In this document: positions 45,946 through 64,000 of the stretch, one piece after another
How the letters are laid out: each line of letters starts with the position of its first letter
Position numbering within the stretch: the first letter of the stretch is position 1
From: Natrinema ejinorense
Lineage (GTDB): Archaea > Halobacteriota > Halobacteria > Halobacteriales > Natrialbaceae
Length of the DNA: 64,000 nucleotides
Assembly (NCBI RefSeq): GCF_002494345.1
Contig: NZ_NXNI01000001.1
Location: forward strand, 496,001 to 560,000
Direction of reading: 5' to 3'
Program-made: the position numbers and the translations under genes
Notes under the pieces: generated by a model
What the model saw: only the letters and a program-made list of their open reading frames with translations
The model's database searches: none
What the model was told of the DNA's origin: nothing

Positions 45946-45947
45946 AG

Positions 45948-46826: not shown

Positions 46827-46827
46827 A

Positions 46828-47193
46828 TTAGATCATCCCGTTCATCGTGAGTGCGACGTAGGTTCCCTGCGCGACGAGTCCGACGCTGACAACGACCAGC
46901 ACTGCCAGAACGGCCTTCTTTTGCGTTCCCTCCAACCCCTGGTTGACCAGCGCGTTGTAGACGCCGTTGACACCGTGGAAGGTAGCGGTGATCAGGAACA
47001 ACACCATTGTCAATAGGTACCCAACGTTTTGCATTCGGGCCTGAGTACCCAAGAAGCTTACCTCGTAGGCGTGGTTGACGAAGTGTAAGAGGAAGAAGTG
47101 GAAGGCGAGAACGATCACCAGAAACGCCGCCGTGACCCGCTGGAGGAACCAGCGCGTGCCGCCGGGCGTAAACGAGGAGTAGCGTTCCGCCAT
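46828..47193 (-). CDS. sdhD: Succinate dehydrogenase membrane subunit SdhD
   Basis: 121 residues with three transmembrane helices: FLQRVTAAFLVIVLAFHFFL, NVGYLLTMVLFLITATFHGV, and AVLAVLVVVSVGLVAQGTYV. His residues in LAFHFFLLHFVNH and ATFHGVNGVYN are candidate haem or quinone ligands. It anchors the complex with SdhC. Its start overlaps the sdhC stop by one base (47193). Confidence 0.88.
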   Translation of the reverse strand: MAERYSSFTPGGTRWFLQRVTAAFLVIVLAFHFFLLHFVNHAYEVSFLGTQARMQNVGYLLTMVLFLITATFHGVNGVYNALVNQGLEGTQKKAVLAVLVVVSVGLVAQGTYVALTMNGMI

Positions 47194-47621
47194 CAGATTC
47201 CCACCCCGGAGACGAAGGTCGGGACGCTCGCGACGGTAATCGCACCCGTCAGCATCACCGAGGCATAGAAACTCTTGTCTTGACTGTCCAGACCGACACC
47301 TAAGTCGACCATCAACAACCGGACACCGTTCAAGATGTGGAAAACAGCGACAGAGAGTAACCCGACCTCCATCAGTCTGATTATGAAGAGGCCCTCGAGT
47401 CCCCGGACTGTCTGCGTGTAGACGTCAGTCTGCTGTTGGATCGCCGCTGGATCGCCGTTTACAGCGCCGATAGACGTGCTCAACACTGGAATATGCATAA
47501 AAAGATAACCAATGAGAATCCACCCACTGAACTTATGAAGAATCCATGCCCACATTCCAGCGGAAAATTCTTTCCACCTGCCGAAGTCCTCAACCACTCC
47601 GCGGTTGTAAGAATTACTCAT
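47193..47621 (-). CDS. sdhC: Succinate dehydrogenase cytochrome b subunit SdhC
   Basis: 142 residues. Three helices: [20 protein letters not shown] (with the HKFSG family motif), [20 protein letters not shown] (with [10 protein letters not shown], a haem-binding-type His), and [20 protein letters not shown]. It is the first gene of sdhCDBA. The promoter must lie in the 340-bp region upstream shared with P450-1. Confidence 0.9.
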
Positions 47622-47961
47622 GCGCTCTATCCGGGGTTTGGCGTGGAAGTAGTATAGTAGTTACTGTTCGCACTACTCGTAAAGACGTTACTATCGGAAT
47701 ATCGACCGCCAGCGCCCATCTAGCAGCATCGGATTAAACTCGTTTTGTCTGCCTGTTCGAGGCCGGTTTCCACGGGCTAACCGGTCGGAACTTTCACTGA
47801 TTCGGTGACTCAATTTCGTTCGAACGGTTCGGGCGAGACCGGTCGTTTTCGTGGGGTCGAGCGCGTATCGGTCAGCCGGCTTGCCACATATTGTACTCCT
47901 CCCCTAATAAATAAACTAGGCCAAATATTTATTTATTCAATCAGTACAATGTGTTAACAGA
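47622..47961. promoter_or_regulatory. Divergent control region of sdhCDBA and P450-1
   Basis: 340 bp, turning A/T-rich beyond 47885. The P450-1 box is AAATATTTATTTATT (47923-47937), 25-39 bp before ATG 47962. Imperfect inverted half-sites CACATATTGTACT (47885-47897) and AGTACAATGTG (47943-47953; reverse complement CACATTGTACT) flank this box, the second covering the likely transcription start. This could be an operator for a repressor. No other gene is seen here. Confidence 0.5.
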
Positions 47962-49323: not shown

Positions 49324-49418
49324 TCCCGCAAACGGGTCCCAGACGCCCGTCTGGATACGGAACAGTCCGAATCACGGCCGATGCGGTAGTCGCTAACTCG
49401 ATGTATGGCTGTCAGAGC

Positions 49419-50759
49419 CTAGAACAATGTTCGTCGGATCACGCTGGGGCGTACCAATGAGAGCGGGTCTTTCTCCATCGTCGATACCCGCAGAAAGGCG
49501 TCGGTCAACGTCCCATCCGATTGCGCTCCCTGCCGTAATCGAGACAGGTACCAGCCGAGTAGTTTCGCTTTCCGGGGCGTTGGGTCGTTCGCCTGTGGAT
49601 ACTCCAGATCGGCACCGATCGCGATCGTCCAAGCCGTGTCGATAACTGACGCGACGCGGCGAAAGAAACGGGATGACAGCGATTCACGCTGGCCTGCAGC
49701 GAGCGCGTGGTGAAGTTCCAACGCATCCAGAGCGGCTACTGACATCCCCTGGCCGTAGAGCGGATTGAAACTAGCGATCGCATCCCCGGTAACGAGAAGG
49801 CCGTCCGGAAACCTGTCGAGCGCTTCGTATCGCCGCCGAACGTTCGATGGGAACGGATAGTGACGGACTTCGTCGCCGAGCCACTCGTGGGTCTCGAGCA
49901 GTTGTGCCACTTCGTCGTTCGGCAGGCTGTTCGCAAACGACACGACCTCGTCGGGATCGGTCGGGGCTCTCTCACCGTGTATTCCCTGAACGGTCACGAG
50001 CCACCGGCCGTCTTCGATCGGAAGAACGGCCCCACCTCGAGTGCGAGGTGGGGACGGAGGAACGATGATGGCATGTCGTTCATCGGTCGGCCGGTCGATG
50101 ACGACGGTGCTGTAGGTCACGTCGACCTGTATTTCCTCGACTGGCGGGGGACGGTAGCCGTGCTCTTTCAGCCAATTCGGTGTTCGGGACGTTCGTCCAG
50201 TTGCGTCGACAATCAGGTCGGCGTCGAGTTCCGTTTTCTCGGCGTTCTGGCCGCGTACTTCGACACCGTGAATTCTCGTCGTATCTTCGGTGAGATAGTC
50301 GATGAGGGTCGTCCTGGTCCGGACGGTGATCTCGTCGATGGCCGTGACGCGGGTGCGAAGCGTCCGTTCGAACAGCGGTCGGCTTGCACAGTACATCGGT
50401 ATTCGCTTCGGTCCATTGGCCAGATATCCACCGTCGTAGTAGTAAGAGAGGTCACTGGCTGCGTCGATCAATAGTCCGCCGGTCGAAAGTAACGCTTCAC
50501 CGTAGTCTGGAAACAGATCTTCGAGCGTGGCTCGACCTGCCTCTTGAAGTACGTGAGGCTGGCTCGCCTGAGGGACGCCCCGTCGTGTGCTTGGCTCGTC
50601 GGGTAGCGGATCCTGTTCGATGACGATGACCTCCGTGAACCGGTCGGCCAGAACGCGGGCCGCACACAGCCCGGCGACACCGCTTCCGACGACGATTGCT
50701 CTCCCCTGTTTCTGAGAAACCCGACTATCATCGTACCGAGTAACGGCTTCCAGTACCAT
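49419..50759 (-). CDS. FAD-dependent monooxygenase (1)
   Basis: 446 residues. Rossmann start AIVVGSGVAGLCAARVLADR (residues ~20-39), then RRGVPQASQPHVLQEAGRAT, the substrate-side region of group A flavoprotein monooxygenases and epoxidases. LIVDATGRTSRTPNWL is the second dinucleotide motif region, and GDAIASFNPLYGQGMSVAAL is the GD motif that contacts the FAD ribityl. The family hydroxylates aromatics or epoxidises alkenes with NAD(P)H. The ATG at 50759 gives exactly the same length as its paralogue at 61447. A TATA box on the minus strand (GTTTTATAATA, 50784-50794) is 25-35 bp upstream. It is divergent from the C-methyltransferase. Confidence 0.87.
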   Translation of the reverse strand: MVLEAVTRYDDSRVSQKQGRAIVVGSGVAGLCAARVLADRFTEVIVIEQDPLPDEPSTRRGVPQASQPHVLQEAGRATLEDLFPDYGEALLSTGGLLIDAASDLSYYYDGGYLANGPKRIPMYCASRPLFERTLRTRVTAIDEITVRTRTTLIDYLTEDTTRIHGVEVRGQNAEKTELDADLIVDATGRTSRTPNWLKEHGYRPPPVEEIQVDVTYSTVVIDRPTDERHAIIVPPSPPRTRGGAVLPIEDGRWLVTVQGIHGERAPTDPDEVVSFANSLPNDEVAQLLETHEWLGDEVRHYPFPSNVRRRYEALDRFPDGLLVTGDAIASFNPLYGQGMSVAALDALELHHALAAGQRESLSSRFFRRVASVIDTAWTIAIGADLEYPQANDPTPRKAKLLGWYLSRLRQGAQSDGTLTDAFLRVSTMEKDPLSLVRPSVIRRTLF

Positions 50760-50783
50760 TAAATCGCACTGTATTCGCGGTTG

Positions 50784-50825
50784 TATTATAAAACCAACCA
50801 TAACTTTTGATGGAAAATTTTAAAT
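50784..50825. promoter_or_regulatory. Divergent TATA boxes for FAD monooxygenase 1 and C-methyltransferase
   Basis: TATTATAAAAC (50784-50794), read on the minus strand as GTTTTATAATA, serves the monooxygenase (25-35 bp from ATG 50759). TTTTAAAT (50818-50825) serves the methyltransferase (24-31 bp from ATG 50849). Confidence 0.55.
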
Positions 50826-50848
50826 GGTCTCTATATGATATTACTAAT

Positions 50849-51709
50849 ATGGGAAACTCGAAAAAAACGAACGAAGAGATACAGAAATTCTTCACTGATG
50901 CAGGTGACGTATTTGACACGTATATGGAGGAGAAGGGTCATAGCAACATTCATTACGGCTACGCCGCCGAGAACGGCAATGCGAAGACCGACGGTGATGG
51001 GACGAACGAGTTGAACAGGAAACTCGCCGAAACGGTCGATATCAGCGCCGATAACCGAGTGCTATTCTGCGGGTGTGGCGTTGGCGGACCCGCGATCTGG
51101 GCCGCGAAGAACCTCGGAACTGAGTCGATCGGAATCAACATCGTCGGACACCAACTCGAACAGGCCCGGGAGAATGCGAGGGAAGAAGGTGTCGCGGACC
51201 GGACGGAGTTTCGGTACGACGATCTAACGAAAATGCAGACCGTCGAGGACGACTCGATCGACGTCGTTTGGGCGATCGAAGCCGTCGTATACGCCGAAAA
51301 CAAGGGGGATTTCCTTACGGAAGCACGGCGCGTTCTCGGTGACGATGGTCGCCTCGTGATCGCCGAGGGGTTCAAAGCGAAGCGATATCCCTCAACCGAG
51401 GAAGAACAGATGTTGAGACAACTCGAAGAGGGATGGTCCGTCCCAAATATCGTCTACATCGACGACTTCACTCGAGATATGGAATCCAAGGGCCTCCAGA
51501 ACGTCGAGGTCGAGGACATTACGGAAAACATCATGCCGTTCGCAAAATCGAACGCCCTCGGTCGTCACTATCTCTACTTGATAAAGTTACAGAAGAAACT
51601 CAACCTGATGCCGGAAAAGAAGGCGAACCACCTCCTAAACCTTGCTAACCAGTATCACGTCTTCAGGCGACGTATCTTGACGTACAATATCGTCTCGGCT
51701 ACAGTTTAG
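50849..51709 (+). CDS. Sterol/prenyl C-methyltransferase-like SAM enzyme
   Basis: 286 residues. Motif I is VLFCGCGVGGPAIWAAKNLG (about 71-90); the GCGVGGPA loop is characteristic of sterol C-24, tocopherol and geranyl-diphosphate C-methyltransferases. Later motifs: GINIVGHQLEQARENA, and IDVVWAIEAVVYAENKGDFL with EARRVLGDDGRLVIAEGF. It probably adds a methyl to an isoprenoid carbon. ATG at 50849 (MGNSKKTNEE) is chosen because TTTTAAAT lies 24-31 bp upstream; an in-frame ATG at 50810 adds 13 residues (MENFKWSLYDITN). The gene is noticeably A/T-rich at third positions. Confidence 0.85.
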   Translation: MGNSKKTNEEIQKFFTDAGDVFDTYMEEKGHSNIHYGYAAENGNAKTDGDGTNELNRKLAETVDISADNRVLFCGCGVGGPAIWAAKNLGTESIGINIVGHQLEQARENAREEGVADRTEFRYDDLTKMQTVEDDSIDVVWAIEAVVYAENKGDFLTEARRVLGDDGRLVIAEGFKAKRYPSTEEEQMLRQLEEGWSVPNIVYIDDFTRDMESKGLQNVEVEDITENIMPFAKSNALGRHYLYLIKLQKKLNLMPEKKANHLLNLANQYHVFRRRILTYNIVSATV

Positions 51710-51831
51710 TTCGGATGACAGTTCAATCTAGCTTTCGTGTCCCGTTCAACTCCGAATCGCGTATTCGTCCCGAGCGAACGGGGACCTGTTCCGATTTGGA
51801 ATGAGATGTCCATTGCTCCTCCCGCCTCGAC

Positions 51832-52728
51832 TCAGTTCTCGAGGTGTCTTAAAAGAAGGTCGGTGACGCGGTCTGGGATTTCGTGGTGGAGCCAGTGCGT
51901 CGCAGTGGGGATTCGGACGAGAGAACCGTTGTTGCAGTACTCGATACTTTTAGAAGCCAGTTCTGGTAGCAATGCCCGATCGTTTTTTCCCCAGATTACC
52001 AGCGTCTGATTCGAAATTCGATCGCGAGGTGACCCTTGATCGTGGCGTATCCATGCACGATACCAGTTAATCATCGCTGTGGGGGCTCCATCTTGCTTCC
52101 ACGCGACACGGTACAACCGCTCGTCCGCGTCGGTAAACTCCTCCGGGCCGAGGTCGTCACGAATCGCGTTACTCCACATCCGGTAATCGTTTCGCCGTCC
52201 GATCCATTCGGGGAGTCGGGGTAACTGGAAAAAAAAGACGTACCAGCTCTTACCGAGCTGTCGGACGTTCGAACGGAGGTGTTGCCAGTACGCGGCTGGG
52301 TGAGGCGCGTTCAGAATAGCGAGCCGATCGACGCTGGCCGGATATCGATGTGCGACGTTCCATGCTACCATCCCGCCCCAATCGTGTCCGATGACGTGAG
52401 CGGATCGATGCCCCGTCGACTTGATCAGCCCCAGGATATCCCGTGAGAGTTCCGTGAGTCGATAGGATCGGACACGTGGTGGCTTTTCACTCAAGTTGTA
52501 TCCCCGTTGATCCGGGATGAGCACTCGATATCCAGCGTCGACGAGTGGGTCAACATAGCGGTGCCAGCAGTACCAGAATTCAGGGAATCCGTGAAGGAGT
52601 ACGACGGGCGGATCCTCTTGGTGTCCTGCTGTGACTACATGTAACGTGGTACCGTTGACATCCCTGTATGTGGATTCGGCTGAGCGGGTATCCACCAACG
52701 ATGCGTCGACCGATGGGTGATCAGCCAT
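51832..52728 (-). CDS. Alpha/beta hydrolase of the epoxide hydrolase type
   Basis: 298 residues. The oxyanion-hole motif is HGFPEFWYCWHR (residues 46-57). The nucleophile elbow reads VIGHDWGGMVAW, with Asp116 at the nucleophile position, as in epoxide hydrolases and haloalkane dehalogenases, rather than Ser as in esterases. The catalytic His is in ATHWLHHE near residue 280. A lid domain lies between about 140 and 215. Together with two FAD monooxygenases it suggests epoxide opening to a diol. ATG at 52728 is preferred to a GTG at 52737. Confidence 0.87.
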   Translation of the reverse strand: MADHPSVDASLVDTRSAESTYRDVNGTTLHVVTAGHQEDPPVVLLHGFPEFWYCWHRYVDPLVDAGYRVLIPDQRGYNLSEKPPRVRSYRLTELSRDILGLIKSTGHRSAHVIGHDWGGMVAWNVAHRYPASVDRLAILNAPHPAAYWQHLRSNVRQLGKSWYVFFFQLPRLPEWIGRRNDYRMWSNAIRDDLGPEEFTDADERLYRVAWKQDGAPTAMINWYRAWIRHDQGSPRDRISNQTLVIWGKNDRALLPELASKSIEYCNNGSLVRIPTATHWLHHEIPDRVTDLLLRHLEN

Positions 52729-53529
52729 CGTAGTCACCGCCCCAGTCCTCTACCGTCGGTATCATTTCTTCGGACGAATCCGTTTCCGTCTCGAACGGTA
52801 CCGTTTCTGACCGGTGACGAGCCGCCGGTGCCGACTTCTTTCAGAGAACGTTCACATTCCGGTCGAAGTGATGACGCTTCCGAGTTGGCTCTTTCCAAGA
52901 CGTCCCTATCTAGCCCGGGACGAAAGGGGCTATCGACCAGCGTTAGACGGTGCCAGTGTATAGAACACGTATCGTCCTGCAACTCACTGTCTCCAGAGCC
53001 GAGGTCTGTCGTCCACCACGCGAAGTCCGGTATCGGGATCATTGGTCTCTGCCAAAAACCTCATCTTGATCCTACTTAAACTCATATATAATATCATAAA
53101 GATATTATTAATAGAGAATTGGAAAACATAGCTCGTTCGCCGGGGAGAGAGCGCCGCGTCAACGGATAGGTACCGTTCGACACTGTGGTATCGTAATCGC
53201 TGAAACGAGTGATACATTGACCGCGATGTCGCCGTGCAATGACTTCCAGTGAGTACTATAGCGATGCCAGATCCAAACGGTCTGATCGGCGAAAGAACCG
53301 AACGCACTCCTCGAGCTCGAACGGCCTGCCCACAGCACCTGAGATTCGAGCGCTCTGGCTAGTGGGAAGCGACAATCAACGAGGACAGGTCGGTAATCGT
53401 ACTCCCTACCGCCATCTCAAAAGGCTGCTGCCTGCCAACTCTCATCAATACTAGCTTCCCTTATTTAACATCTCTACGTACTTTTTATATGAACAAAGAG
53501 TTGAAATAGATAGGGTACGATCTGATGTT
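52729..53529. other. 800-bp gap with repeat copy C and AT-rich promoter DNA
   Basis: No convincing gene. The left half (to ~53045) has frames with no family resemblance. An A/T-rich block at about 53076-53125 (TCATATATAATATCATAAAG) looks like a promoter, but no start codon for a good ORF follows. Repeat copy C is at 53189-53260. CTTTTTATAT at 53481-53490 is the likely TATA box for the aminotransferase at 53530. The gap may mark a lost gene or an RNA. Confidence 0.45.
53189..53260. repeat. Palindromic intergenic repeat, copy C (72 bp, shortened core)
   Basis: Left arm TATCGTAATCGCTGAA and right arm TTCCAGTGAGTACTATA match the outer arms of copies A and D. The inner right arm (GCGGTCAGGT in copy A) is missing, leaving an 11-bp deletion. 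The same intergenic setting: between cluster genes. Confidence 0.75.
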
Positions 53530-54897
53530 ATGGGACAACAACCGGCGTACACGGAACCACACTTCGATGGATTGTTCCCACAGAATTTCCACACCCCAAA
53601 TATAGATTTCGAGAAGGGAGTGGGAGAAACGATAATCGATGCTAACGGCAACACGTACATCGACGTTGCCTCCGGTAACCAGAACGTCACTATCGGACAT
53701 GGGAGAGAAGAAATCGCAGAAGCCGCATACGAACAACTCTCCAGCCTCGAGTACATACCGATGCAGCAAACCACGGAGTCCGTTCGCTCCTTCGGTGAGA
53801 CGATAACGGGTTTCATGCCCGACGGGTTCGAACGTGCGTGGCTCGTTTCAGGCGGATCGCTCGCGGTCGAAAGTACGATTGCGATGGTTCGACAGTATCA
53901 CACAGAACGAGGAAACGAACGGAAGCACAAATTCATTACTCGGCGAGGGAGCTATCACGGAACTACACTCGGTGCCCTGTCTGCGACGGGATTCGAGATG
54001 TATACCACTCATATGGATCCATTGCTACAGGATTTCCCAAAAGCTCCTCGAGGCAACCAGTATCGATGTACGCTATGTGGTGGTGGTGGCGGAAGCGAAT
54101 GTGGAAGACGATGTGCGGACATGTTCGAACAGCTCGTACTGGAACACGGACCGGAAAACGTAGCCGCATTCATGGCCGAACCGGTCGGTGGCAGCCAGAG
54201 TCAGGGTGAACGGCCCCACCCGGAGTACTTCGAACGGGTCCGAGAAATCTGCGACGAGTACGATATATTGTTCGTCGTCGACGAAATTCTCACCGGTATC
54301 GGGCGAACCGGAACCAATTTCGCGATCGAGCAGTACGATATCACTCCGGATATTATCGTCACTGGGAAGGGGGTAACAGCAGGATACGCCCCTGCCGGTG
54401 TCGTTATGCCCCACAACCGAGTTGTAGAAGTGTTCCGAGAAATCCCGCACGGATTTGCACACGGGTACACGAATTGTTTCCATCCGGGAACCGCCGCAAT
54501 CGCCAAAGCCGTTCTCGAATTCACTCGTCAAAACGAACTCGTCGAGAACGCCGCTACTGTGGGCAGTTATTTGGGTGAGCGATTGACATCGCTCTACGAT
54601 TATGATGCGGTTGGTGACGTCCGTGGCGTTGGACTGTTACACGGGGTTGAGTTCGTTGCGGACCGAGAAACGAAAGAGCCACTCGATGTTGATTTCGAGT
54701 TGCAACAGGCGCTCGTTGAAGCAGGTCTTGACAACGGCGTCCTGTTGTCGACCGAGGGTGGCCACCTCGACGGAAAGAACGGGGATCTCCTCGTTATCGC
54801 CCCACCACTCACGATCGAAGAAACGCAGGTAGATGACATGGTCGACCGGATCTATACCGCCGTCGGCGACGCATTAGCTCGAGTCGGTGTTGCGTAA
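53530..54897 (+). CDS. Class III PLP-dependent aminotransferase
   Basis: 455 residues. It has the class III features: DANGNTYIDVASGNQNVTIG at the start, SGGSLAVESTIAMVRQYH (PLP phosphate), a SYHGTTLGALSATG region, VVDEILTGIGRTG, then TGKGVTAGYAPAG with Lys280 as the PLP Schiff base. Around residue 175-195 a Cys-rich insert (YRCTLCGGGGGSECGRRCAD) occurs in a subgroup of these enzymes; its role is unknown. The amino donor and acceptor cannot be told; within the cluster it could aminate an aldehyde or ketone of the terpenoid. It is divergent to the EH gene and followed by P450-2 convergently. Confidence 0.88.
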   Translation: MGQQPAYTEPHFDGLFPQNFHTPNIDFEKGVGETIIDANGNTYIDVASGNQNVTIGHGREEIAEAAYEQLSSLEYIPMQQTTESVRSFGETITGFMPDGFERAWLVSGGSLAVESTIAMVRQYHTERGNERKHKFITRRGSYHGTTLGALSATGFEMYTTHMDPLLQDFPKAPRGNQYRCTLCGGGGGSECGRRCADMFEQLVLEHGPENVAAFMAEPVGGSQSQGERPHPEYFERVREICDEYDILFVVDEILTGIGRTGTNFAIEQYDITPDIIVTGKGVTAGYAPAGVVMPHNRVVEVFREIPHGFAHGYTNCFHPGTAAIAKAVLEFTRQNELVENAATVGSYLGERLTSLYDYDAVGDVRGVGLLHGVEFVADRETKEPLDVDFELQQALVEAGLDNGVLLSTEGGHLDGKNGDLLVIAPPLTIEETQVDDMVDRIYTAVGDALARVGVA

Positions 54898-55184
54898 CCG
54901 ACCAGTCGGAGACAGCAACGACTCGGTAGAATCGGAAGACGGCTACTTCTCTGCAGTTGTTTCGTTCGGTGAGCAGCGGACAGTTGCCTACGAGTCGGTT
55001 CCGCCGACCAATGTCGACACTGAACGACCGAGTGGGAGGGACACGCTCTTCGCTGATCAGGATCTCGTACCGGACAGACGTTATCCGATGTCCGTCACTG
55101 TCGTCGTTCGCCCGAAAACGGACTTCGAAGCGGCCCCAGCGCCTCTTCCTATAGTTCGAGGGGGTAAATCGATCAAAACGCTAT

Positions 55185-56546
55185 TCAGCGCCGGTATGGG
55201 ATCATATCGATACCGTTTTTCGGCCGAGTCGTGACAGCCCAGTCTAACTCGATCGGAGGCTCCGTGTCGAGTTCCAGATCGTACTCTTGTAGAACTTTTG
55301 CCAGAATCAATTTCGATTCGACTTCTGCGAACCCTTGGCCCAGACAGCGGCGCGGACCCATGGCAAACGGCACATAGCCGTACTCGTGATCGCACGGATT
55401 GCTTTCTTTCATCCACCGATCTGGGTCGAACGCGTAGGGGTCGTCCCACACGCGTGGATTACGCTGAATCCCCCACTGGAAGACGATGACTGGTCTGCCT
55501 GCGGAGATGTGGTAGCCGCTGAGTTCATCGTCGTTGAGCGGCTCTCTGTTCACGCTGTACGCCGGCGAATACAATCGCAATACTTCTTTGAAAACGGCAT
55601 CGAGGTACTCTAAATTCGGCAGATCATCCGGTGACGGCTCCTGACCGTCGATCTCTTCGTCGAATTCGTTTCGGAGCCTTCGTACCACTTTCGGATGACG
55701 TGCCAGAAGATAGAGCGAAAACGTCAGCCCCTGTGCCGTCGTTTCGTGACCGGCAAAGAGCATCGTTTTGACCTTTTCCCGTAGCACGTTGTGGTTGATA
55801 TTTCGGTCCACTTGGTCTCGCATGTCGAGACTCCGAGTGATGAGATCGTCGGCGTCGTCGTCGGCCAACTTGCGAGTTCGAATGATTTCGTCGGCAATCG
55901 AATCCAACGTCTCAACAGCGTTCTGATACCGTCGATTCTGTGGTGTTGGAACCCACTCCGGAACGGATACGCCCATAGAGTTCCTGAATAGATGGCTAGT
56001 CGCGACTTTCAGGTTGTGTCCGATGGATTCGCCATACTCACTGGCATCCCAGTTGAAAACCGCCTTACACACTACTCGAATAGTCAGCGCCATCATCTCT
56101 TTGTGAATATCGACGACTTCCCCATCGTTCCATGACGCCGTCATTTCTTCCGTGTATTCCATTATATGGGGGCCGATAGACTTCGCCTTTCCTTTAGAAA
56201 TAAGCGGTGTGAGGACGTCTCGCTGGTGTTGCCAGAGGTCGTCCTCGCTACTCAATATGTCCTCTCCCCAGAAATTTTCGAAGACTTTCTTTTGCCTCTC
56301 GGACTTCATATAATTGTCGTTGTTGTCGTGGAATATGCGTTGGGCATCGTCTGGATTACGCGTGATGTAGTATTCGGACCCAAACATTTCCATTTTGAGT
56401 ATGTCCCCGTGCTCTTGGCACATTTTGTTCAAGAATCGGACTGGATCGTTCGCTCCGACAAAGGTAAGTGCATTTCCGATGACGGGATGTCCGTCGGGCT
56501 GTGGCGGTTCGGGGAGAGCACTCGAATTCGAATTACTAAGTGCCAT
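55185..56546 (-). CDS. Cytochrome P450 (2)
   Basis: 453 residues, the paralogue of P450-1. I-helix LFAGHETTAQG, ExxR in KEVLRLYSP, haem loop FAMGPRRCLGQGF with Cys401. The start, MALSNSNSSALPEPPQPDGH, and the ending TTRPKNGIDMIP match P450-1 almost residue for residue. The pair probably arose by duplication in the cluster and may act at different positions or stages. ATG at 56546 has an A/T-rich TATA region (GGTTTTTATTTTATG, minus strand, 56564-56577) upstream. Confidence 0.93.
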   Translation of the reverse strand: MALSNSNSSALPEPPQPDGHPVIGNALTFVGANDPVRFLNKMCQEHGDILKMEMFGSEYYITRNPDDAQRIFHDNNDNYMKSERQKKVFENFWGEDILSSEDDLWQHQRDVLTPLISKGKAKSIGPHIMEYTEEMTASWNDGEVVDIHKEMMALTIRVVCKAVFNWDASEYGESIGHNLKVATSHLFRNSMGVSVPEWVPTPQNRRYQNAVETLDSIADEIIRTRKLADDDADDLITRSLDMRDQVDRNINHNVLREKVKTMLFAGHETTAQGLTFSLYLLARHPKVVRRLRNEFDEEIDGQEPSPDDLPNLEYLDAVFKEVLRLYSPAYSVNREPLNDDELSGYHISAGRPVIVFQWGIQRNPRVWDDPYAFDPDRWMKESNPCDHEYGYVPFAMGPRRCLGQGFAEVESKLILAKVLQEYDLELDTEPPIELDWAVTTRPKNGIDMIPYRR

Positions 56547-56948
56547 GAAAGTGCTATTGTGCTCATAAAATAAAAACCTATTCGTATAATAAATGTGCTT
56601 AGCAATATAAAATAAATACTGAGACGATAGGATTCATAGTAGCGAGATCCGTAGCCGAGTAAACTCTGAAGGGAGATCTACCACTGATCTCTAGGAAATA
56701 GAACGTCTACGTCAAGACGAGGATCGGTCCGAGGATCCCGAGCTATCTCCGGTGTGTTTTCCAGTCTCTGAACAGAAACTCGAACCGGTGGCTCTTGTGA
56801 TGATTTCAGCGCAGAACGTGAGCTACGAGTTGTCGATGAGAGGGAATACTCTGCTAAGAACGTTGTACAAAACCGGAGTAACGGTTGAGTAGGGTAGCTC
56901 ACCCGGGTTGTGATGCACCGAGAGGGCTATCCTCCCGGTGTGGGGCGG
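56547..56948. other. Gap upstream of P450-2
   Basis: 402 bp. The first ~90 bp are A/T-rich and contain the P450-2 promoter. From ~56690 to 56900 there may be a decayed frame on the minus strand (RFEFLFRDWKTH-like words interrupted by stops), possibly a transposase remnant, but this is not secure. No intact gene. Confidence 0.35.
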
Positions 56949-57389
56949 TTACCCCCACGAAACTGCATCGATAGCAGTGACCATTTTCAGTGTGTCCTGC
57001 TGGGGCCAGATATCCACGAGTTTCCCGTTGGAGGTTCTGTGGATGTTGTTTCCTCGGAGTTCAATCTCGGCACCCGTTCCACCATCGATCTCGTTCGGAA
57101 GCCATTCGCCCTCGTGCGTGGCAGTCATGGTCCACCGGACTGCGACAAGATCATCCTCGGTGAAGATATCGTGGATGGTGAATTCGGCGTCGGGCCATGC
57201 ACTGTTGAACGATTCCGCGAACCATCGCGCACCTTCACGCCCCTGTTTATCGCTCGCACCGAGGCTTTCGGGGCCGTGGAACGTACAATCCTCTGCGATT
57301 ATTTCGTCGATTACGTCGGGGTTGTTCTCGTTGAACACTTCGACAAACCATCGCTCTGTCGCTTCGAGGGCTGAATCAGCTTCTGACAT
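56949..57389 (-). CDS. SnoaL-like / ester cyclase family protein
   Basis: 146 residues, one domain of the NTF2-like fold: WFVEVFNENNPDVIDEIIAE, FHGPESLGASDKQGREGARW, then VAVRWTMTATHEGEW, ending GNNIHRTSNGKLVDIWPQQD. This is the SnoaL/polyketide cyclase-like and ester-cyclase family. In biosynthetic clusters they close rings or hydroxylate without cofactor, but many have no known role. The TATA box TTAATAATTA (57411-57420) lies 22-31 bp upstream of the ATG at 57389. It is on the same strand as the terpene cyclase, 166 bp after that gene. Confidence 0.83.
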   Translation of the reverse strand: MSEADSALEATERWFVEVFNENNPDVIDEIIAEDCTFHGPESLGASDKQGREGARWFAESFNSAWPDAEFTIHDIFTEDDLVAVRWTMTATHEGEWLPNEIDGGTGAEIELRGNNIHRTSNGKLVDIWPQQDTLKMVTAIDAVSWG

Positions 57390-57410
57390 GATCCATTCTC
57401 TAGTACTACG

Positions 57411-57420
57411 TTAATAATTA
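57411..57420 (-). promoter_or_regulatory. TATA box of the SnoaL-like gene
   Basis: TTAATAATTA at 22-31 bp before the start codon at 57389, in an A/T-rich stretch. Confidence 0.5.
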
Positions 57421-57555
57421 AAAGTTTTTCTATAGTTAATATATTGTTGAAGCGGTAGTAATCTCGGAGGTTGCTGAGACATCCATTCGCGGGAGGGTCG
57501 GGGTTCGTCCGAACCCGAAAAGCGGCACCGAAGAAACTCGTCGCTCGGCCGCACT

Positions 57556-58587
57556 TTACTTATAGCCCTCGCTGATTAGATGGTAGATCATTACCATCTT
57601 CATTCCCTCGAGGAGTTCGTCGAGGTCAACTGAGGCGGCCGTTAGCTCGTTGTCCGTGAGTTCTTCGTACGACGAGATCCACCGATCCATCAACTCGGTT
57701 TCGACCTCGCTGTGACGAATCGCCTCGATCGCGGATTCGGGCCGTTCTCTGAGGTCCTCCGGCTCGACGATTCCGTCTCGCAGCGCCCAGACGACGACTC
57801 CCGACGAGAAGTCACCTTCCCGAATTTCGCGTTCCCATGTAGAGACCCAGTTTCCGATCCGTGCCAATCGTTGGATCTTCCAGAGGAGTTCCCGGAGCGG
57901 TGCGAGATCGCTTCGTTCGAATGTCGGCGAAGCCATCAGATCGATGCCGATGTACGGAAAGACGACCATGTTATGGGGGCCGTAATGAATGGCACCGCTC
58001 CGTGTCGCCGTTTCCGGCTGTTCGATAAGAAGCCGTGAGTAGTCTATCGAATTAATAGACTGCCTCGTGTCGTAACGGAAGAGTTCGGTAAACTCGTCGG
58101 CACGTGGCGCGTCGTGAATCTCTCGACGTAACTCATCCCAAACGTTCCGTGCCATAGACACCGATGCCGAGTCGACACCGTCAGTAGTGACAGTCTCGTC
58201 AGGAAACGGAATCTTTCGCGCCTGTCTGAATGTCGTCCGATCGTGATTTACCTCTGCGATGTCGTCGAGGATCGTGATGAACATCGTGAAGAGGGTCTTT
58301 CGCGTCCGTGTGGCCTCGAACAGTTCCTCGGATACGGTATCTAGCGTACAGTATGGGAACAATTCGTAGATCCACTTCCAGACGAATTCGTTTCGGATTC
58401 CGATCCGGTCGTCGTACTCCGCCGCAAGTGACTCGACCGGCGATGGAAGCGTAGTGTTATTGATTCTGTCTATAACTGTGTCGGGATCTAGCGTATCAAC
58501 CGCGTTCTCGTCGACAGAATCATATAAACATTCTAATAATACGGTTGGTGTCTTTCTATCAGCCTCCTCTAATTCATGTACATCCAT
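57556..58587 (-). CDS. Class I terpene cyclase (isoprenoid synthase fold)
   Basis: 343 residues. The Asp-rich motif is LDDIAE (DDxxE, Asp108-Glu112) and the NSE/DTE motif is NWVSTWERE (residues 246-254), which fits N-x-(L/I/V)-x-(S/T)-x3-E. Their spacing of 138 residues equals that of bacterial class I terpene cyclases such as pentalenene synthase. Other helical landmarks: FVWKWIYELFPYC, KTLFTMFITIL and GDFSSGVVVWALRDGI after the NSE motif. It would cyclise a prenyl diphosphate (C10-C20) by ionising the diphosphate with three Mg2+. The C-terminal RY motif of some cyclases is not seen. The start ATG 58587 has a TATA box (TTTATATCC, 58611-58619 minus). Confidence 0.85.
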   Translation of the reverse strand: MDVHELEEADRKTPTVLLECLYDSVDENAVDTLDPDTVIDRINNTTLPSPVESLAAEYDDRIGIRNEFVWKWIYELFPYCTLDTVSEELFEATRTRKTLFTMFITILDDIAEVNHDRTTFRQARKIPFPDETVTTDGVDSASVSMARNVWDELRREIHDAPRADEFTELFRYDTRQSINSIDYSRLLIEQPETATRSGAIHYGPHNMVVFPYIGIDLMASPTFERSDLAPLRELLWKIQRLARIGNWVSTWEREIREGDFSSGVVVWALRDGIVEPEDLRERPESAIEAIRHSEVETELMDRWISSYEELTDNELTAASVDLDELLEGMKMVMIYHLISEGYK

Positions 58588-59053
58588 AGTATTTATTACC
58601 CAGTAATGGATATAAATTTGATGGTAGTGTGTCAGTCTGTGACATAGTTGGTGCTGTTCTATAGGAGTGCCTGAAAGGCATTGCACACCTGATCGCGGGG
58701 CAGCGTCGCGATCAGTGTGTCACTCGTTTCAGCAGCTACCATAGCGACTCGACAGTTCCGTAATCTCGGTTCTCGAGCGCAAAAGACGAGGTGGGTGATG
58801 TGCACTAGCCCGTGTTGCCGGATATCCGACGATACCGGTGAATCTATAGTTCGGAAATTTGATGTTTGGCGCTCCGGTCCTGGAACGGCGTCGGATGTGT
58901 TCCAGCGAGCGTGAGGTTTGCGGTTAGGCGTCAGTTTGCATTCGTGAGGATCCGAAACCGGCTCGAATGCTCTCCTTGCGGCTACGGAACGGGAGTGACC
59001 GTCGGAGACTGGAACGGAATCGGTCGGAGACGACGTAAACCGAATCCCGGAAA
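58588..59053. other. Gap with repeat copy D and terpene cyclase promoter
   Basis: 466 bp. It contains the cyclase TATA box (AAATTTATATCC on the minus strand, 58609-58619) and repeat D (58660-58743). The rest holds only frames with Arg/Ser-rich products. Confidence 0.45.
58660..58743. repeat. Palindromic intergenic repeat, copy D (84 bp)
   Basis: Left arm TATAGGAGTGCCTGAA, core CACACCTGATCGCG / CGCGATCAGTGTGTC, right arm TTCAGCAGCTACCATA followed by GCG. The inner stem CTGATCGCG/CGCGATCAG is perfect over 9 bp. Confidence 0.82.
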
Positions 59054-59758
59054 TCAGTACAGGACGGCACCGAGAAACGAACGTAACTGGGCCCATCCGT
59101 TCGTGCGAAGCGCTTGCGTGAAATTGCGGCGTGCGTTCGCTCGGAGATGGTACAGTTCGGCGGACGCGCGGGAGTCAATCCCGCGACCGTGACCGACGAT
59201 GATTCGAGCAGGTTCGACATCAGCCAGCGGCTCTAACCATTTTCGCAATCGGACCAGCAGGTGCATTCCGATTCGCTCTTTCGCAACCGTGTACAGTGTC
59301 GCCGTTCCCAGAACGTCCGGCACGTAGAGCGTCCTATCTGATTTTCGGAACGCGATCCCCTCCCGCCAGCCCGGGAGTGGCTGACACCCATCTACGATAA
59401 AACCCGAGTTACCGAGTCGGGCGTCGTACCTCTCTATAGAGTGAGAAATGCGTGGTTCGACACGACTCATCCACGTCGGAAGGTAGACCGGGACATCATA
59501 TCGATGTGCAAATATGTCGGCGTCACGAGAGTGGTAGTTCGAGAGGACAGCGACGCCAACTACGTCTCCGAGTTCGTCGATCTCTTCGTCGATCCCCGAT
59601 GCGTCGATCGGATCGAAGAGCCAGACGCCGTCGTCACCCAGGAGTGCGTGACTCGCTCTTTGTGTCAACTCTTCTGGATGAGCGATCCATCCGAACCCCT
59701 CTGGCCATTGATCGATCACCTGATAGCGGTCCGAACGATTCCTTACGTACGGATCCAT
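59054..59758 (-). CDS. Degenerate MBL-fold-like protein
   Basis: 234 residues. It resembles metallo-beta-lactamase proteins (ALLGDDGVWLFDPIDASGID, then LSNYHSRDADIFAHRYDVPV, later LYVPDVLG and IIVGHGRG), but the HxHxDH motif is replaced by YHSRDAD, so metal binding is probably incomplete. Such proteins are known in haloarchaea without assigned function. In this cluster it could bind or hydrolyse a thioester or an intermediate. It follows the 66-residue membrane protein and UbiA on the same strand. ATG at 59758. Confidence 0.7.
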   Translation of the reverse strand: MDPYVRNRSDRYQVIDQWPEGFGWIAHPEELTQRASHALLGDDGVWLFDPIDASGIDEEIDELGDVVGVAVLSNYHSRDADIFAHRYDVPVYLPTWMSRVEPRISHSIERYDARLGNSGFIVDGCQPLPGWREGIAFRKSDRTLYVPDVLGTATLYTVAKERIGMHLLVRLRKWLEPLADVEPARIIVGHGRGIDSRASAELYHLRANARRNFTQALRTNGWAQLRSFLGAVLY

Positions 59759-59792
59759 ACTGATTTCTGTCGGCGTTTTTTCCTCCGACAGC

Positions 59793-59993
59793 TCATTCTG
59801 ACAACAGGGGATTGAGGGCCGCTCTCAGCGAGAGGAACCCGAGCAAGCCCGTGGCTACTGCAACCAGTAACACACCGATTGTGAGAAAGATCGCAGAGCT
59901 CGGTAAAAATGTCGCCACGTCCCACAACAGTTCGCGTAAGTCATTGATGTTCTCGACGACAATATTCAGACCGAATTTCCACTGGCCGGGCAT
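59793..59993 (-). CDS. Small membrane protein in the UbiA transcript
   Basis: 66 residues: MPGQWKFGLNIVVENINDLR, then a hydrophobic helix TFLPSSAIFLTIGVLLVAVA / TGLLGFLSLRAALNPLLSE. One long or two short helices. No family was recognised. Its start has a strong TATA box (AAATATATAAACC on the minus strand, about 60018-60030) 25-37 bp upstream. It lies between UbiA and the MBL-like gene. Confidence 0.6.
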   Translation of the reverse strand: MPGQWKFGLNIVVENINDLRELLWDVATFLPSSAIFLTIGVLLVAVATGLLGFLSLRAALNPLLSE

Positions 59994-60129
59994 AATATTC
60001 AGTTCGGTACAACATGGTTTATATATTTTGGATTTGCGAACGAAGGTTCGCCAGTGAGGAGCCAAACCGGATCAAAACAGCGGCTATTCCGTCGATCAGT
60101 TTAACCTCGCTGGTGCCACCTTTGGGTAG

Positions 60130-61044
60130 TCAGAAGAACCCGCCAGGTAATCCGGTCAGGAAGTCGGCTCCGGCGACCACAATACCCATCAGGACGAACG
60201 ATACGTCCCAGGAGATGCTGAGATATTCTGCCCACCCTTCGCGACAGAACAGGTACTCGGCGGTTGCTGTATAAACCAGTATCGGCAGCACCACGAGGAC
60301 TGCGATTGGGGTTTCGACGGTGACGAGGAGATACGAAAGTACGAGTGCCGAAAGTATCTCGAGGCCGTACATGATCCGTCGAGTACCATCGATTCCGTAC
60401 TTGATCGGAACCGAATCGACGTTGGCGGAAATGTCGCCGTGTATGTCGGGAACGTTCGCGACCTCCACGGACATGAACCATCTGACGAAAATGAACAGTC
60501 CGGCGGCAATAGCGGTGTCAAGTGGTACGTGATTGGTCGTGAGCGCGATAGGGAGCGCAACGACTTTCACTACCCACGCCCCGGCGACGATGAACGAATT
60601 GAGTACGAGCACTTGCTTCAAGCGTTTTATTTCCTTGAACGGAAGCCAGGCGCTCGAATAAACCAGCTGTGCGGTCAGCGGGATGAGACTGAGCAACCCA
60701 GCGACGAGGCTGCCGTAGTAGAACGCGATTCCGACGCCGACGAAGTGGAGGACAACGCTCAGAACCCCAATGAATCGATTCCAGCGGCGGGAGTACTGTG
60801 AGTTCCACGGTTGATTCACGAAGTCCTCTTCGCTGTCAGTGAGGTTGTTGATCCCATAGACCCCAAACGCTAGCAGCGGAGCGATACCGACGGCGGCGTT
60901 GAGTTGGATCGAAAGAAAGACGCTGATGACGTATACCTGTGCGATAGCTGCTAACGATACGATGAACGTTCCGTTTTTGAGAAATAACGATAACTGTTTG
61001 ACTGTACTAACATCCTGGGCTAGAATTTCGTTTGTGTAACTCAT
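60130..61044 (-). CDS. UbiA family prenyltransferase
   Basis: 304 residues with about nine transmembrane helices. First motif NNLTDSEED (Asn66, Asp70, Asp74; the NxxxDxxxD group) and second motif VPDIHGDISANVD (Asp200-x3-Asp204, later Asp210) bind Mg2+ and prenyl diphosphate. UbiA enzymes move prenyl chains onto aromatic or other acceptors. The acceptor here is unknown; the setting next to a terpene cyclase suggests a meroterpenoid or a modified quinone/lipid rather than archaeal core lipid synthesis. A few UbiA members act as terpene cyclases themselves. The start at 61044 overlaps the stop of a 66-codon ORF. Confidence 0.9.
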   Translation of the reverse strand: MSYTNEILAQDVSTVKQLSLFLKNGTFIVSLAAIAQVYVISVFLSIQLNAAVGIAPLLAFGVYGINNLTDSEEDFVNQPWNSQYSRRWNRFIGVLSVVLHFVGVGIAFYYGSLVAGLLSLIPLTAQLVYSSAWLPFKEIKRLKQVLVLNSFIVAGAWVVKVVALPIALTTNHVPLDTAIAAGLFIFVRWFMSVEVANVPDIHGDISANVDSVPIKYGIDGTRRIMYGLEILSALVLSYLLVTVETPIAVLVVLPILVYTATAEYLFCREGWAEYLSISWDVSFVLMGIVVAGADFLTGLPGGFF

Positions 61045-61241
61045 TTCACGTTCACCCCTCGCTGTGACCGACAGCCGTCCGAGCGATCATCGTATTCTGC
61101 GGTCGTTCCCGTGTCGAGTACAGGCTTGACCGACCCGATTCGTCGATAGGGACCGTGGTAGCTGCCGCAATCGAGCGCCCGGTATTTCGGCTCAACTGCA
61201 ACTCGACTCGAGGCTCGCTTTAGGATTTGATTTCTCCCCAT
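61041..61241 (-). CDS. Small ORF coupled to UbiA
   Basis: 66 codons (MGRNQILKRASSRVAVEPKY, then RALDCGSYHGPYRRIGSVKP, ending DGCRSQRGVNVK). The stop overlaps the UbiA start in the ATGA form (61041-61044). The TATA box CATATATTATAACG (61261-61274, minus strand) lies about 20-33 bp upstream of the ATG at 61241, so this ORF would be the first of the UbiA transcript. It is basic and has two Cys residues; no family was recognised. It may be a leader ORF only. Confidence 0.4.
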   Translation of the reverse strand: MGRNQILKRASSRVAVEPKYRALDCGSYHGPYRRIGSVKPVLDTGTTAEYDDRSDGCRSQRGVNVK

Positions 61242-61260
61242 CACATCTAAAATTTTATTG

Positions 61261-61274
61261 CGTTATAATATATG
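61261..61274 (-). promoter_or_regulatory. TATA box of the UbiA unit
   Basis: CATATATTATAACG (minus strand), A/T-rich and 20-33 bp before the first ATG at 61241. Shares the 205-bp region with the promoter of FAD monooxygenase 2 (TTAATTAAATTTTA, 61407-61420). Confidence 0.5.
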
Positions 61275-61446
61275 TGTTATGGTAAAGGAAAATGGAATGC
61301 AGCTCAGGGACCGATGGATTCTCCGAAGGCTTTAGCCGTGGGTAGCTCAACCTGCAGCAATTGAAGACGAGATACTGCTACGGGAAGGGTACTATTCTGA
61401 GATGTATTAATTAAATTTTAGTCTCTAGAATTTATACCTGCCCTGG

Positions 61447-62787
61447 ATGACGCTATCGAAATTCGGGCGATATGACGGCAACCGCGTCGACGAGAGTGGT
61501 GGGAAGGCAGTCGTTCTCGGCGCGGGTATCGCCGGACTGTGCGTGGCCCGCGTGGTAGCCGATGCGTTCGATCAGGTCATCCTCGTCGAACGCGACTCGT
61601 TGCCTGAGAACGCGGTGAAACGCGGAGGTGTTCCTCAGAGCGCTCATCCACACGTGCTTTGGGAAGCGGGACGGGCGACGTTGGAGGACTTCTTCCCAGG
61701 GTACGGGGAAGAACTCGTCTCCGCCGGCGGGCTGTTCATCGACGTTACTACTGATTTCAATTATTACATCGAAGAGGGTTTCGTTGCAGACGGGCGAAGC
61801 AGCCTCCCGATGTACGCCGCGAGCCGGCCGCTCTTCGAACATCTCGTCCGCCGGCGTGTTGTTGCACGAGATGACGTAGAAGTATGGTCGAACTGCCAGT
61901 TCGTCGAGTACCTGCTCAGCGACGATGCAACGGCAGTCACGGGGGTGGTGGTTGAGGACGAATGTGGGCAAACTACACTATCCGCTGCTCTCGTCGCAGA
62001 CGCCACCGGCCGCACGTCCCAGACACCCACATGGCTGGAAAACCACGGTTACCCATCGCCACCTGCCGAGGAGATTCGCGTTGACGTCTCTTACAACACG
62101 GTCGCGATCGAACGGCCGCCGACCGACCGCCGACTATTCGTCGTTTCTCCCTCCCCGTCCCGAACCTCTTACGGCGGACTCTTTCCCGTAGAGGACGGTC
62201 GGTGGCTTGCGATCCTCGGAGAGATGCATTCCGACGGGCCACCGCCGAACGCTGAGACGATCACGTCGATCGCCGAGAATCTCCCAATCCCTCACGTCGA
62301 GCGACTCCTCACTACCCAGCCGTGGATAGATCGCGAGGTCCGGAGTTACTTCTTCCCGTCGAACGTTCGCTGGCGTTACGAGGATATCGATTCGTTTCCC
62401 GACAATCTCGTCGTCGTCGGCGATGCGATAGCGAGCTTCAACCCTATTTACGCACAAGGCATGTCAGTGGCGGCGCTCGAAGCGCTACTGTTACACCACC
62501 TCCTCGCAGACGGGATACCTGACGACATCGGGCTTCGATTCTTCGAGCAGGTCACGGCGGTCGTCGATATCGCGTGGCAGTTGGCGGTCGACAGCGACCA
62601 CCGGTTCCCCCAGACATCCGGTCCGTCGCCCAGAGGTTCCGGGTTCCGCAACCGATACCGTTCTCGAGTAATCCGTAGCGCTCACTCCGACCCGACGGTA
62701 GCTGACGCGTTCTATCGGGTACTCGCGATGCAACACTCCCCTACGTTACTGCTACGCCCTGGTATCTTGTGGCGTGTCTTGACGTAG
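61447..62787 (+). CDS. FAD-dependent monooxygenase (2)
   Basis: 446 residues, same length as monooxygenase 1 and about half identical by eye. The Rossmann motif is AVVLGAGIAGLCVARVVADA, then KRGGVPQSAHPHVLWEAGRA, LVADATGRTSQTPTWL and GDAIASFNPIYAQGMSVAAL. Like the first copy it fits group A flavoprotein monooxygenases/epoxidases. The two probably act on different double bonds or intermediates of the same pathway. ATG at 61447; a TATA-like TTAATTAAATTTTA lies 27-40 bp upstream. It converges with the O-methyltransferase (16 bp between stops). Confidence 0.87.
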   Translation: MTLSKFGRYDGNRVDESGGKAVVLGAGIAGLCVARVVADAFDQVILVERDSLPENAVKRGGVPQSAHPHVLWEAGRATLEDFFPGYGEELVSAGGLFIDVTTDFNYYIEEGFVADGRSSLPMYAASRPLFEHLVRRRVVARDDVEVWSNCQFVEYLLSDDATAVTGVVVEDECGQTTLSAALVADATGRTSQTPTWLENHGYPSPPAEEIRVDVSYNTVAIERPPTDRRLFVVSPSPSRTSYGGLFPVEDGRWLAILGEMHSDGPPPNAETITSIAENLPIPHVERLLTTQPWIDREVRSYFFPSNVRWRYEDIDSFPDNLVVVGDAIASFNPIYAQGMSVAALEALLLHHLLADGIPDDIGLRFFEQVTAVVDIAWQLAVDSDHRFPQTSGPSPRGSGFRNRYRSRVIRSAHSDPTVADAFYRVLAMQHSPTLLLRPGILWRVLT

Positions 62788-62803
62788 ACGTCGTTCAGTA
62801 TCG

Positions 62804-63814
62804 CTACTTCGTCGCGACCACCATCGTTTCGGGGGTCGGAAGGTCCCGCACTTCCGTCTTCGAGAATCCCACCTCTCGAAGCCAGGTCTCACACTCCTGT
62901 GGCGTGTAATCGAAGCCATCCGCCGTCTCGACGAGCGTGTTCAGACTCACCAGCAGCCCCATCTCGTTTTCGCGACGTTCGTTATCGATCATGGTCCCGT
63001 AGACGAGGAGCACACCGCCCTCCGGCAGGGCCTCGTAGGCACGTTCGAGTATCTCTTTTTTACCAGATAGTCCCCAGTCGTGGATGATACGGCCCAAAAT
63101 GAACACGTCGTGTTCCGGGAGGGGGTCCTCAAGGAAGTTACCGCCGTGAAACGAGACCCGGTCGTCCATTCCGCGTTCCGCGATGAACTCCATCGATATC
63201 GGTTCGAGTTTCGGAAGGTCGAACGCGGTCGCCTCTATATGGGGATTTTTCTCAGCGATTGTCACCGGCACCTGCCCCTCGGCAGTTCCGAGGTCACACA
63301 CCGTCTCGTACTCTTCCCACTCGAAGGTTTCCGCGATAACGGTGGCGACCGCGAGACTGAATCCCGTCATCGAACTGGCGAACCGCTCGAGACGCTCGTC
63401 CGCTTCGTAGAGCGCGTTGAAATACTCGTCGTCGTCATCGAGGTCGACTTGAGGTTCCCCGGTTCGAACTGCGTCCGCGAGGTTCATCCACGCCGGATAC
63501 ATTCGATTGTTTCCCAGAGCGAGCGCATCTCCCACGTAGGTTTCCTTGTTCTGGTCGAGGTACAGATCGGCATCGGGCGCGTTTCGGTACAGTCCGTCGT
63601 CACGTTCGAGAAAGCCCAACGCGACGAGGGCATCGAGAAAATCGGCCGATGCTCGCGGATGGAGATCGAGCCGCTCTTCGAGCGCCTCTCGCGTCAGCGG
63701 TTCTTCCGCTAACTCGGTAAATACCCCCAGTTCGACGGCGGCAAAGAGCGCTTTTGATGCGAGGAATCTGAATCCCGTCTGAATGATACGATTCGGCGTG
63801 ACGTCCCCAGACAT
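62804..63814 (-). CDS. SAM-dependent O-methyltransferase (COMT/acetylserotonin type)
   Basis: 336 residues. The N-terminal winged helix dimerisation domain (about 10-85: FLASKALFAAVELGVFTELA, LTREALEERLDLHPRASADF) is followed by the Rossmann part: VCDLGTAEGQVPVTIAEKNP (motif I), FDLPKLEPISMEF, and DVFILGRIIHDWGLSGKKEI, where the His of HDW is the likely general base. The end is TPQECETWLREVGFSKTEVR. These enzymes methylate hydroxyls of phenols, polyketides and terpenoids. A TATA box TAAATTATTAATGG (minus strand, 63837-63850) lies 23-36 bp upstream of the ATG at 63814. Confidence 0.87.
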   Translation of the reverse strand: MSGDVTPNRIIQTGFRFLASKALFAAVELGVFTELAEEPLTREALEERLDLHPRASADFLDALVALGFLERDDGLYRNAPDADLYLDQNKETYVGDALALGNNRMYPAWMNLADAVRTGEPQVDLDDDDEYFNALYEADERLERFASSMTGFSLAVATVIAETFEWEEYETVCDLGTAEGQVPVTIAEKNPHIEATAFDLPKLEPISMEFIAERGMDDRVSFHGGNFLEDPLPEHDVFILGRIIHDWGLSGKKEILERAYEALPEGGVLLVYGTMIDNERRENEMGLLVSLNTLVETADGFDYTPQECETWLREVGFSKTEVRDLPTPETMVVATK

Positions 63815-64000
63815 AAACACAACAAATTATCGAAGCCATTAATAATTTACTGAAGTATATAATATTTACTTATACTATCGCTACATAATATGCAGAGCGC
63901 GATCCCACTCCCGCCTTCATCGAATAACTAGGTTGTCCCCTGATTATCTCGACGCATCGACGGACGTGTCGTGTGACCGATTCACTGTCTCTGTTACTAA
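63815..64000. other. Right edge of the window
   Basis: 186 bp with the O-methyltransferase promoter and no ORF. The cluster may continue beyond the window. Confidence 0.5.

Follow-up and report, generated by a model that had tools for sequence, protein, structure and literature searches.

Does the open reading frame at positions 57556-58587 of the window (the whole stretch of 64,000 nucleotides of Natrinema ejinorense DNA that was analyzed) encode a class I terpene synthase, and what does its genomic setting say about its role? An initial annotation, made from the sequence alone, had called the product an archaeal class I terpene cyclase. Our reading is that the protein is likely (about 0.82) a class I terpene synthase of an archaeal family that has not been annotated; its catalysis, its substrate, and a cyclic product are inferred. 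The fold, the motifs, their conservation, the gene cluster, and the acquisition of this cluster are established computationally.

Gene and Metal-Binding Motifs

The features of the gene are as follows.

57556..58587, minus strand: class I terpene synthase-fold protein of 343 aa with an ATG start (AlphaFold2 pLDDT 93.1, pTM 0.91; PDB fold matches all class I terpene synthases)
58616-58611, minus strand: TATA-like element TTTATA, about 26 bases 5' of the ATG at 58587; a putative leaderless promoter, inferred by eye
58252..58266, minus strand: DDIAE, Mg-binding aspartate motif, residues 108-112 (D109 invariant and D108 at least 90% conserved in 38 family members)
57826..57852, minus strand: NWVSTWERE, NSE-type motif N246/T250/R253/E254, residues 246-254 (N246, W251, and E254 invariant, T250 and R253 at least 90% conserved in 38 members)

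The coordinates of the initial annotation held, as did its placement of DDIAE at residues 108-112 and NWVSTWERE at residues 246-254 with a spacing of 138 residues; the gene lies on the minus strand (58587-57556), and the plus-strand frame is full of stops. The position of the TATA-like element, as read by eye, fits a leaderless haloarchaeal transcript beginning at the ATG. No Pfam or NCBIfam model matched the protein, and its RefSeq relatives are unannotated, six plasmid-borne ones being labeled "hypothetical protein".

The whole protein contains one DDxx[DE] and one NxxxS/TxxxE motif, and a second aspartate-rich motif is absent from it. Such a pair, 110-160 residues apart, occurred in 161 of 20,000 composition shuffles of the synthase (0.8%), and thus the pattern alone is mildly surprising and would not settle the identity of the protein. 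Conservation is more telling. Among 38 family members with 18-45% identity to the window protein, the invariant columns are R65, W72, D109, P161, D216, N246, W251, E254, and D259, with D108, T250, and R253 conserved at 90% or more in the same set, and both motifs are kept in 83 of 84 full-length relatives. At this distance very few columns are invariant or nearly so, and those of the motifs are among them; with both motifs so widely retained as well, the doubt about them is removed. The columns conserved down to 18% identity include the residues expected, by inference, to bind the Mg-diphosphate complex, namely D108, D109, N246, T250, R253, and E254. In addition, a profile aligned the NSE motif in register with those of Sat1646 and AtTPS18, albeit with weak scores.

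Predicted Fold and Comparison with Known Synthases

The AlphaFold2 model, computed with 40 family members as input, consists of helices throughout (pLDDT 93.1, pTM 0.91). The first 50 Foldseek matches in the PDB were class I terpene synthases only, with an E-value of 1.4e-4 to Cop4 and moderate TM-scores of about 0.5-0.6. With VIA-align, taxadiene synthase scored Z 22.1 (266 residues, 3.2 Å) and selinadiene and epi-isozizaene synthases Z 21.8, the three alignments covering about 265-280 residues at 3.0-3.2 Å; these scores are well above the level at which the tool cautions for helical bundles. The top matches as a group had Z of about 22 over 260-298 residues. In the model DDIAE is the last part of helix 87-113, and the NSE motif is found close to where helix 225-256 stops; by inference from known folds these are the places of helices D and H of class I synthases, the geometry of the pocket being likewise inferred. 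A Methanosarcina-type relative with about 18% identity, modeled separately, has the same class I terpene synthase fold (pLDDT 91.4) and Sat1646 as its best structural match (Z 23.2). In a viral fold library the sole match was the Orpheovirus terpenoid synthase (E 6.7e-3). Searches of solved structures by sequence profile yielded no significant E-value for the window protein, only weak in-register matches.

According to the initial annotation, its claim would be refuted by a fold other than an all-alpha terpene synthase or by motifs lying outside the active site, and it had called for comparison with structures such as selinadiene synthase. The predicted fold is all-alpha class I; the motifs are not misplaced as far as helix positions show, their location in the pocket being inferred; and the comparison returned selinadiene synthase at the Z-score given above, with class I terpene synthases at every top PDB match. 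It had also held that the protein is a cyclase rather than a chain-elongating enzyme, as a second DDxxD is missing and an NSE motif is present, and this is supported, the top folds being cyclases too. The alternative, a chain-elongating isoprenyl diphosphate synthase or a squalene/phytoene-type synthase, can appeal to the fold shared across the superfamily and to the DDxx[DE] motif. Against it stand the single DDxx[DE], the near-invariant NSE motif, the lack of a PF00348 match, the terpene synthases among the top folds, and three separate PF00348 synthases elsewhere in the genome; we regard it as very unlikely. A UbiA-type membrane cyclase was also considered and rejected, for the synthase has no UbiA match and has a class I fold, and the UbiA protein of this locus is the product of a separate gene (60130-61044).

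The class I terpene synthase thus predicted shares with bacterial class I enzymes (Sat1646 and the selinadiene, epi-isozizaene, and hydropyrene synthases) the all-alpha fold over its full length, the DDxx[DE] and NxxxS/TxxxE motifs, and a catalytic domain of about 310 aa, but the identity is only about 10%, and the archaeal family differs in several respects. A Trp follows the motif Asn where the bacterial motif has Asp; it is invariant in the member set A1, whereas a few members from methanogens have Thr, Ala, or Cys at this position. The conserved sensor Arg is missing from its usual place: no Arg is conserved in the region upstream of the NSE motif where the Arg-Asp-Gly effector triad, which includes the diphosphate-sensor Arg (as described in PMC11234867), is expected (sets A1 and A2, judged on sequence only, without coordinates). 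Instead of the C-terminal Arg-Tyr pair, most family members have a conserved YHxxSxGxK. The conserved R65, R232, R243, and K343 are candidates for the missing roles, which is an inference. Finally, the window protein has a HalOD1-like N-terminus, and its relatives a neighborhood of sensor genes, both described below. The non-canonical class IB-IF terpene synthases, which lack the DDXXD and NSE/DTE motifs (PMC11234867), resemble the archaeal family in having been found by structure, not sequence, and in having been hidden among hypothetical proteins; in contrast to them, the archaeal family retains both motifs.

Family and Distribution

Relatives were found in 119 of 391 Halobacteria genomes, in 39 genera; a phylum-wide profile search added further relatives outside Halobacteria, including methanogens, and two Patescibacteria MAGs also carry family members. 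Pfam PF19086 (Terpene_syn_C_2) is matched by 29 of 40 relatives at E of 0.1 or less, the best at 1.8e-7, and the better matches span both motifs. The relatives with listed scores reach 17-22 bits, so that the curated cut-off of 23.7 bits is not attained, and the window protein itself has no match to this model. Because of the fold, the near-invariant motifs, the Methanosarcina-type model, and the PF19086 matches of the relatives, class I identity is inferred: a class I fold with the associated metal chemistry is very likely, and actual terpene synthase activity, for which there are no activity data, is likely with less assurance. Here we describe what appears to be a large, overlooked family of archaeal terpene synthases, unannotated in the RefSeq records examined, whose fold and motifs are shown and whose activity is inferred.

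In the tree the window protein stands alone on a long branch next to the Bat-linked clade (support 87/86), and its own family's clade is distant from it.

A second terpene synthase, 38% identical, is encoded in the same genome (G000:C1:587203-588156; loci L041 and L062), divergent from a metallo-beta-lactamase gene, an arrangement common across its family.

The Acquired Island

The synthase gene lies in an island with the following features.

47628..64000, continuing to about 64114 beyond the window: acquired island, absent from another genome of the same species (G005), GC about 0.54 versus about 0.65
47962..49323, plus strand: second cytochrome P450, inverted relative of the first at 55185..56546 (Pfam p450 1.7e-90; inverted repeat 74%)
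49419..50801, minus strand: second flavin epoxidase, 50% identical to the epoxidase at 61447..62787
50807..51709, plus strand: SAM methyltransferase related to the sugar O-methyltransferase and GPP C-methyltransferase families (6uv6 7e-26; GPP 2-C-methyltransferase 2.9e-16, below cut-off)
51832..52737, minus strand: alpha/beta epoxide hydrolase (PDB 5ng7 epoxide hydrolase, E 1.7e-64)
53530..54897, plus strand: class III aminotransferase
55185..56546, minus strand: cytochrome P450, nearest to terpene-oxidizing P450s among named models (NCBIfam albaflavenone monooxygenase 7e-66 and pentalenene oxygenase 3e-59, both below cut-off; PDB 3dbg E 1.7e-49)
56949..57389, minus strand: SnoaL-like protein, the next gene 3' of the synthase (Pfam SnoaL E 1.4e-25)
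59054..59758, minus strand: unannotated 234-aa protein 5' of the synthase (no Pfam match)
60130..61044, minus strand: UbiA-family prenyltransferase (Pfam UbiA 1.1e-15; best haloarchaeal relative 33% identical)
61447..62787, plus strand: flavin epoxidase of the MonCI/Lsd18 (LasC) type (PDB MonCI E 4e-48, Lsd18 6e-44)
62804..63820, minus strand: O-methyltransferase (Pfam Methyltransf_2 1.2e-32)

From 47 kb onward the GC content drops from about 0.65 to about 0.54. The G005 genome is contiguous across the site: its positions 769704-774277 correspond to window positions 43054-47627 (92%), and its positions 764000-770503 match the genome of the window from position 560360 (95%), the overlap of the two matches being an 800-bp sdhC-sdhD stretch. 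The sdhC-sdhD pair is present once in G005 and twice in the genome of the window, where the two copies, about 85% identical, flank the island (window 46828-47627 and G000:C1:560358-561159, that is L061:1361-2154). About 16.5 kb thus entered along with a second, foreign copy of sdhCD and 246 bp that match the sdh region next to it. The likely route, by inference, is homologous recombination at this locus, with the duplicated sdhCD as its probable footprint.

By its gene content, the island is a terpenoid-type cluster. A SnoaL gene adjoins the relative of the synthase in Haloferax marinum as well; an epoxidase gene adjoins a synthase in the halophilic archaeon SHRA6 (locus L033), where an epoxide hydrolase gene accompanies it, and at two further loci (L107 and L110). 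Both island epoxidases are MonCI/Lsd18-like polyene epoxidases; members of their family were found in 118 of 391 haloarchaeal genomes, where the function is unassigned, and mostly away from synthases; thus the pairing with the synthase is not general. A relative of the methyltransferase gene at 50807-51709 lies next to the synthase in a Patescibacteria MAG as well as in a Methanosarcina-type genome. C-methylation of the substrate by this methyltransferase is not claimed, its best PDB match being a sugar O-methyltransferase.

Two pairs of inverted relatives were observed within the island. The segments 48643-49323 and 55185-55865 of the P450 genes are 74-75% alike in DNA, and the pair possibly arose by duplication during the history of the island. 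The other pair, of 52-base segments 75% alike, lies at 53189-53240 (5' of the aminotransferase gene) and at 58692-58743 (5' of the synthase gene), and may be what is left of a small gene or element.

The content of the cluster bears on a second alternative, in which the class I fold and metal chemistry operate without cyclization, giving a linear terpene alcohol or olefin, or transferring the prenyl group to an acceptor in the cluster, as a terpene synthase-like prenyltransferase would. In its favor, the conserved residues argue only for diphosphate binding and ionization, the sensor Arg and the C-terminal Arg-Tyr features are replaced, and enzymes of the acceptor type, UbiA and SnoaL among them, are encoded in the cluster. 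However, the closest folds are those of cyclases, and tailoring by P450s and epoxidases suits a terpene scaffold, so that we consider this alternative unlikely and retain the cyclizing terpene synthase as the preferred reading.

Signaling Genes near the Relatives

Around the relatives, genes for Bat/HTH_10 regulators, for PAS or receiver histidine kinases, and for HalOD1 proteins occur at 0.132 per kb within 3.5 kb of the synthase, versus 0.013 farther away. With one locus taken per genus, 12 of 26 genera have a signaling gene no more than two genes away from the synthase, versus 1.2 expected, and 5000 draws never gave more than 4; the gene calls here rest on our own heuristic, and the genera are not independent samples. 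PAS histidine kinase genes directly adjoin the synthase in six methanogen loci (L146:5928-8683, L147, L148, L149, L141, and L142). In a Patescibacteria MAG (L040:4393-7849), three genes stand in a row: one for a methyltransferase related to that at window positions 50807-51709, one for a terpene synthase, and one for a histidine kinase whose N-terminus is of the 7TM type. In other clades the synthase has as its neighbor a FilR1-type regulator or a divergent metallo-beta-lactamase gene.

In SHRA6 (L033:9446-10963), one open reading frame joins response-regulator receiver, HalX, and terpene synthase domains. This fusion is the only one among 86 frames and rests on one assembly; the long open frames 5' of many other relatives were rejected as fusions, all but that of SHRA6 being, by eye, non-coding read-through. 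A 2018 census of archaeal response regulators with enzymatic output domains, HalX, HalOD1, and Bat (PMC5847659) offers a likeness in the joining of a receiver domain to an enzyme, but its main text contains no terpene or prenyl term, and thus the receiver-HalX-terpene synthase is not described there. More broadly, no description of sensor-linked terpene synthases in archaea was found in the literature searched, most subscription journals being outside its scope.

The window protein carries a trace of the same association.

58489..58563, minus strand: probable remnant of a HalOD1 signaling output domain, residues 9-33, fused to the synthase (local alignment to the L043 HalOD1 protein, z 7.1, 0 of 300 shuffles)

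The L043 HalOD1 protein is encoded by the gene preceding a synthase. In the simplest history, which is an inference, a regulator-HalOD1-synthase unit was the ancestor of the window gene, and recruitment into a biosynthetic cluster followed.

These observations underlie a third alternative, that the family is primarily a signaling module, in which the neighboring PAS kinase or Bat-type regulator reads an isoprenoid signal that the synthase either produces or detects, with the window copy recruited or decaying. The excess of sensor and regulator genes, the kinases of the methanogen and Patescibacteria loci, the SHRA6 fusion, and the HalOD1-like N-terminus speak for it. On the other hand, tailoring enzymes surround the window copy and no sensor gene was observed in its island, the motifs of this copy are intact, the sensor neighbors may just regulate expression, and other clades instead adjoin the metallo-beta-lactamase gene or FilR1-type regulators. 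We hold this alternative to be improbable; for the window protein, a biosynthetic class I terpene synthase remains the preferred reading.

Discussion

The class I terpene cyclase proposed by the initial annotation is thus supported as a class I synthase, with catalysis and a cyclic product still inferred. The genome context, absent from that annotation, changes what the synthase gene means. In the proposed mechanism, a prenyl diphosphate supplied by housekeeping synthases, most likely GGPP or GFPP and possibly FPP, would bind in the helical barrel, where D108/D109 (perhaps with E112) and N246/T250/E254, aided by R253, would hold three Mg ions. These would pull off the diphosphate to leave a carbocation; the pocket would fold this cation, and its quenching would yield a hydrocarbon or an alcohol that is probably cyclic. 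The synthase would thereby provide the scaffold step of an acquired pathway, in which the P450s and MonCI-like epoxidases would oxidize the remaining double bonds, the epoxide hydrolase would open the epoxides (the order of these steps is inferred), and the methyltransferases and other island enzymes would decorate the scaffold. As to the earlier suggestion of a new scaffold, there is no evidence on the product, and the conversion of a prenyl diphosphate to a probably cyclic terpene is inferred only.

Several observations count against this reading. Among them are those given above: the window protein has no Pfam or NCBIfam match and no significant sequence match to a solved structure, an Arg is not conserved at the usual sensor position, and the Foldseek TM-scores are moderate. 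No prenyl diphosphate synthase is encoded inside the island; the three PF00348 synthases lie elsewhere on the chromosome, and may supply the substrate. Most relatives adjoin signaling or regulatory genes, not biosynthetic clusters. Moreover, given the long lone branch of the window protein, its function could possibly have drifted. A preprint by Samusevich et al. (bioRxiv 10.1101/2024.01.29.577750; cited in PMC12797696), which by its title deals with terpenoid biosynthesis in archaea, may already cover part of this family.

A bolder reading, which we consider unlikely, is that archaeal and Patescibacterial synthases work with sensor kinases and Bat/HalOD1 regulators, their terpenoids acting as signals or being controlled as such, and that a descendant was captured into an epoxidase/P450 cluster making a new oxidized terpenoid.

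There is hardly any record of cyclic terpenes in archaea other than carotenoids and lipids. The synthase family considered here is present in about 30% of the sampled haloarchaeal genomes, with its catalytic residues conserved, and is "hypothetical" in the RefSeq records examined. The acquired cluster is compact and could be expressed whole, and the association with sensor kinases prompts a question that can be tested, whether terpenoid signals are made by archaea.
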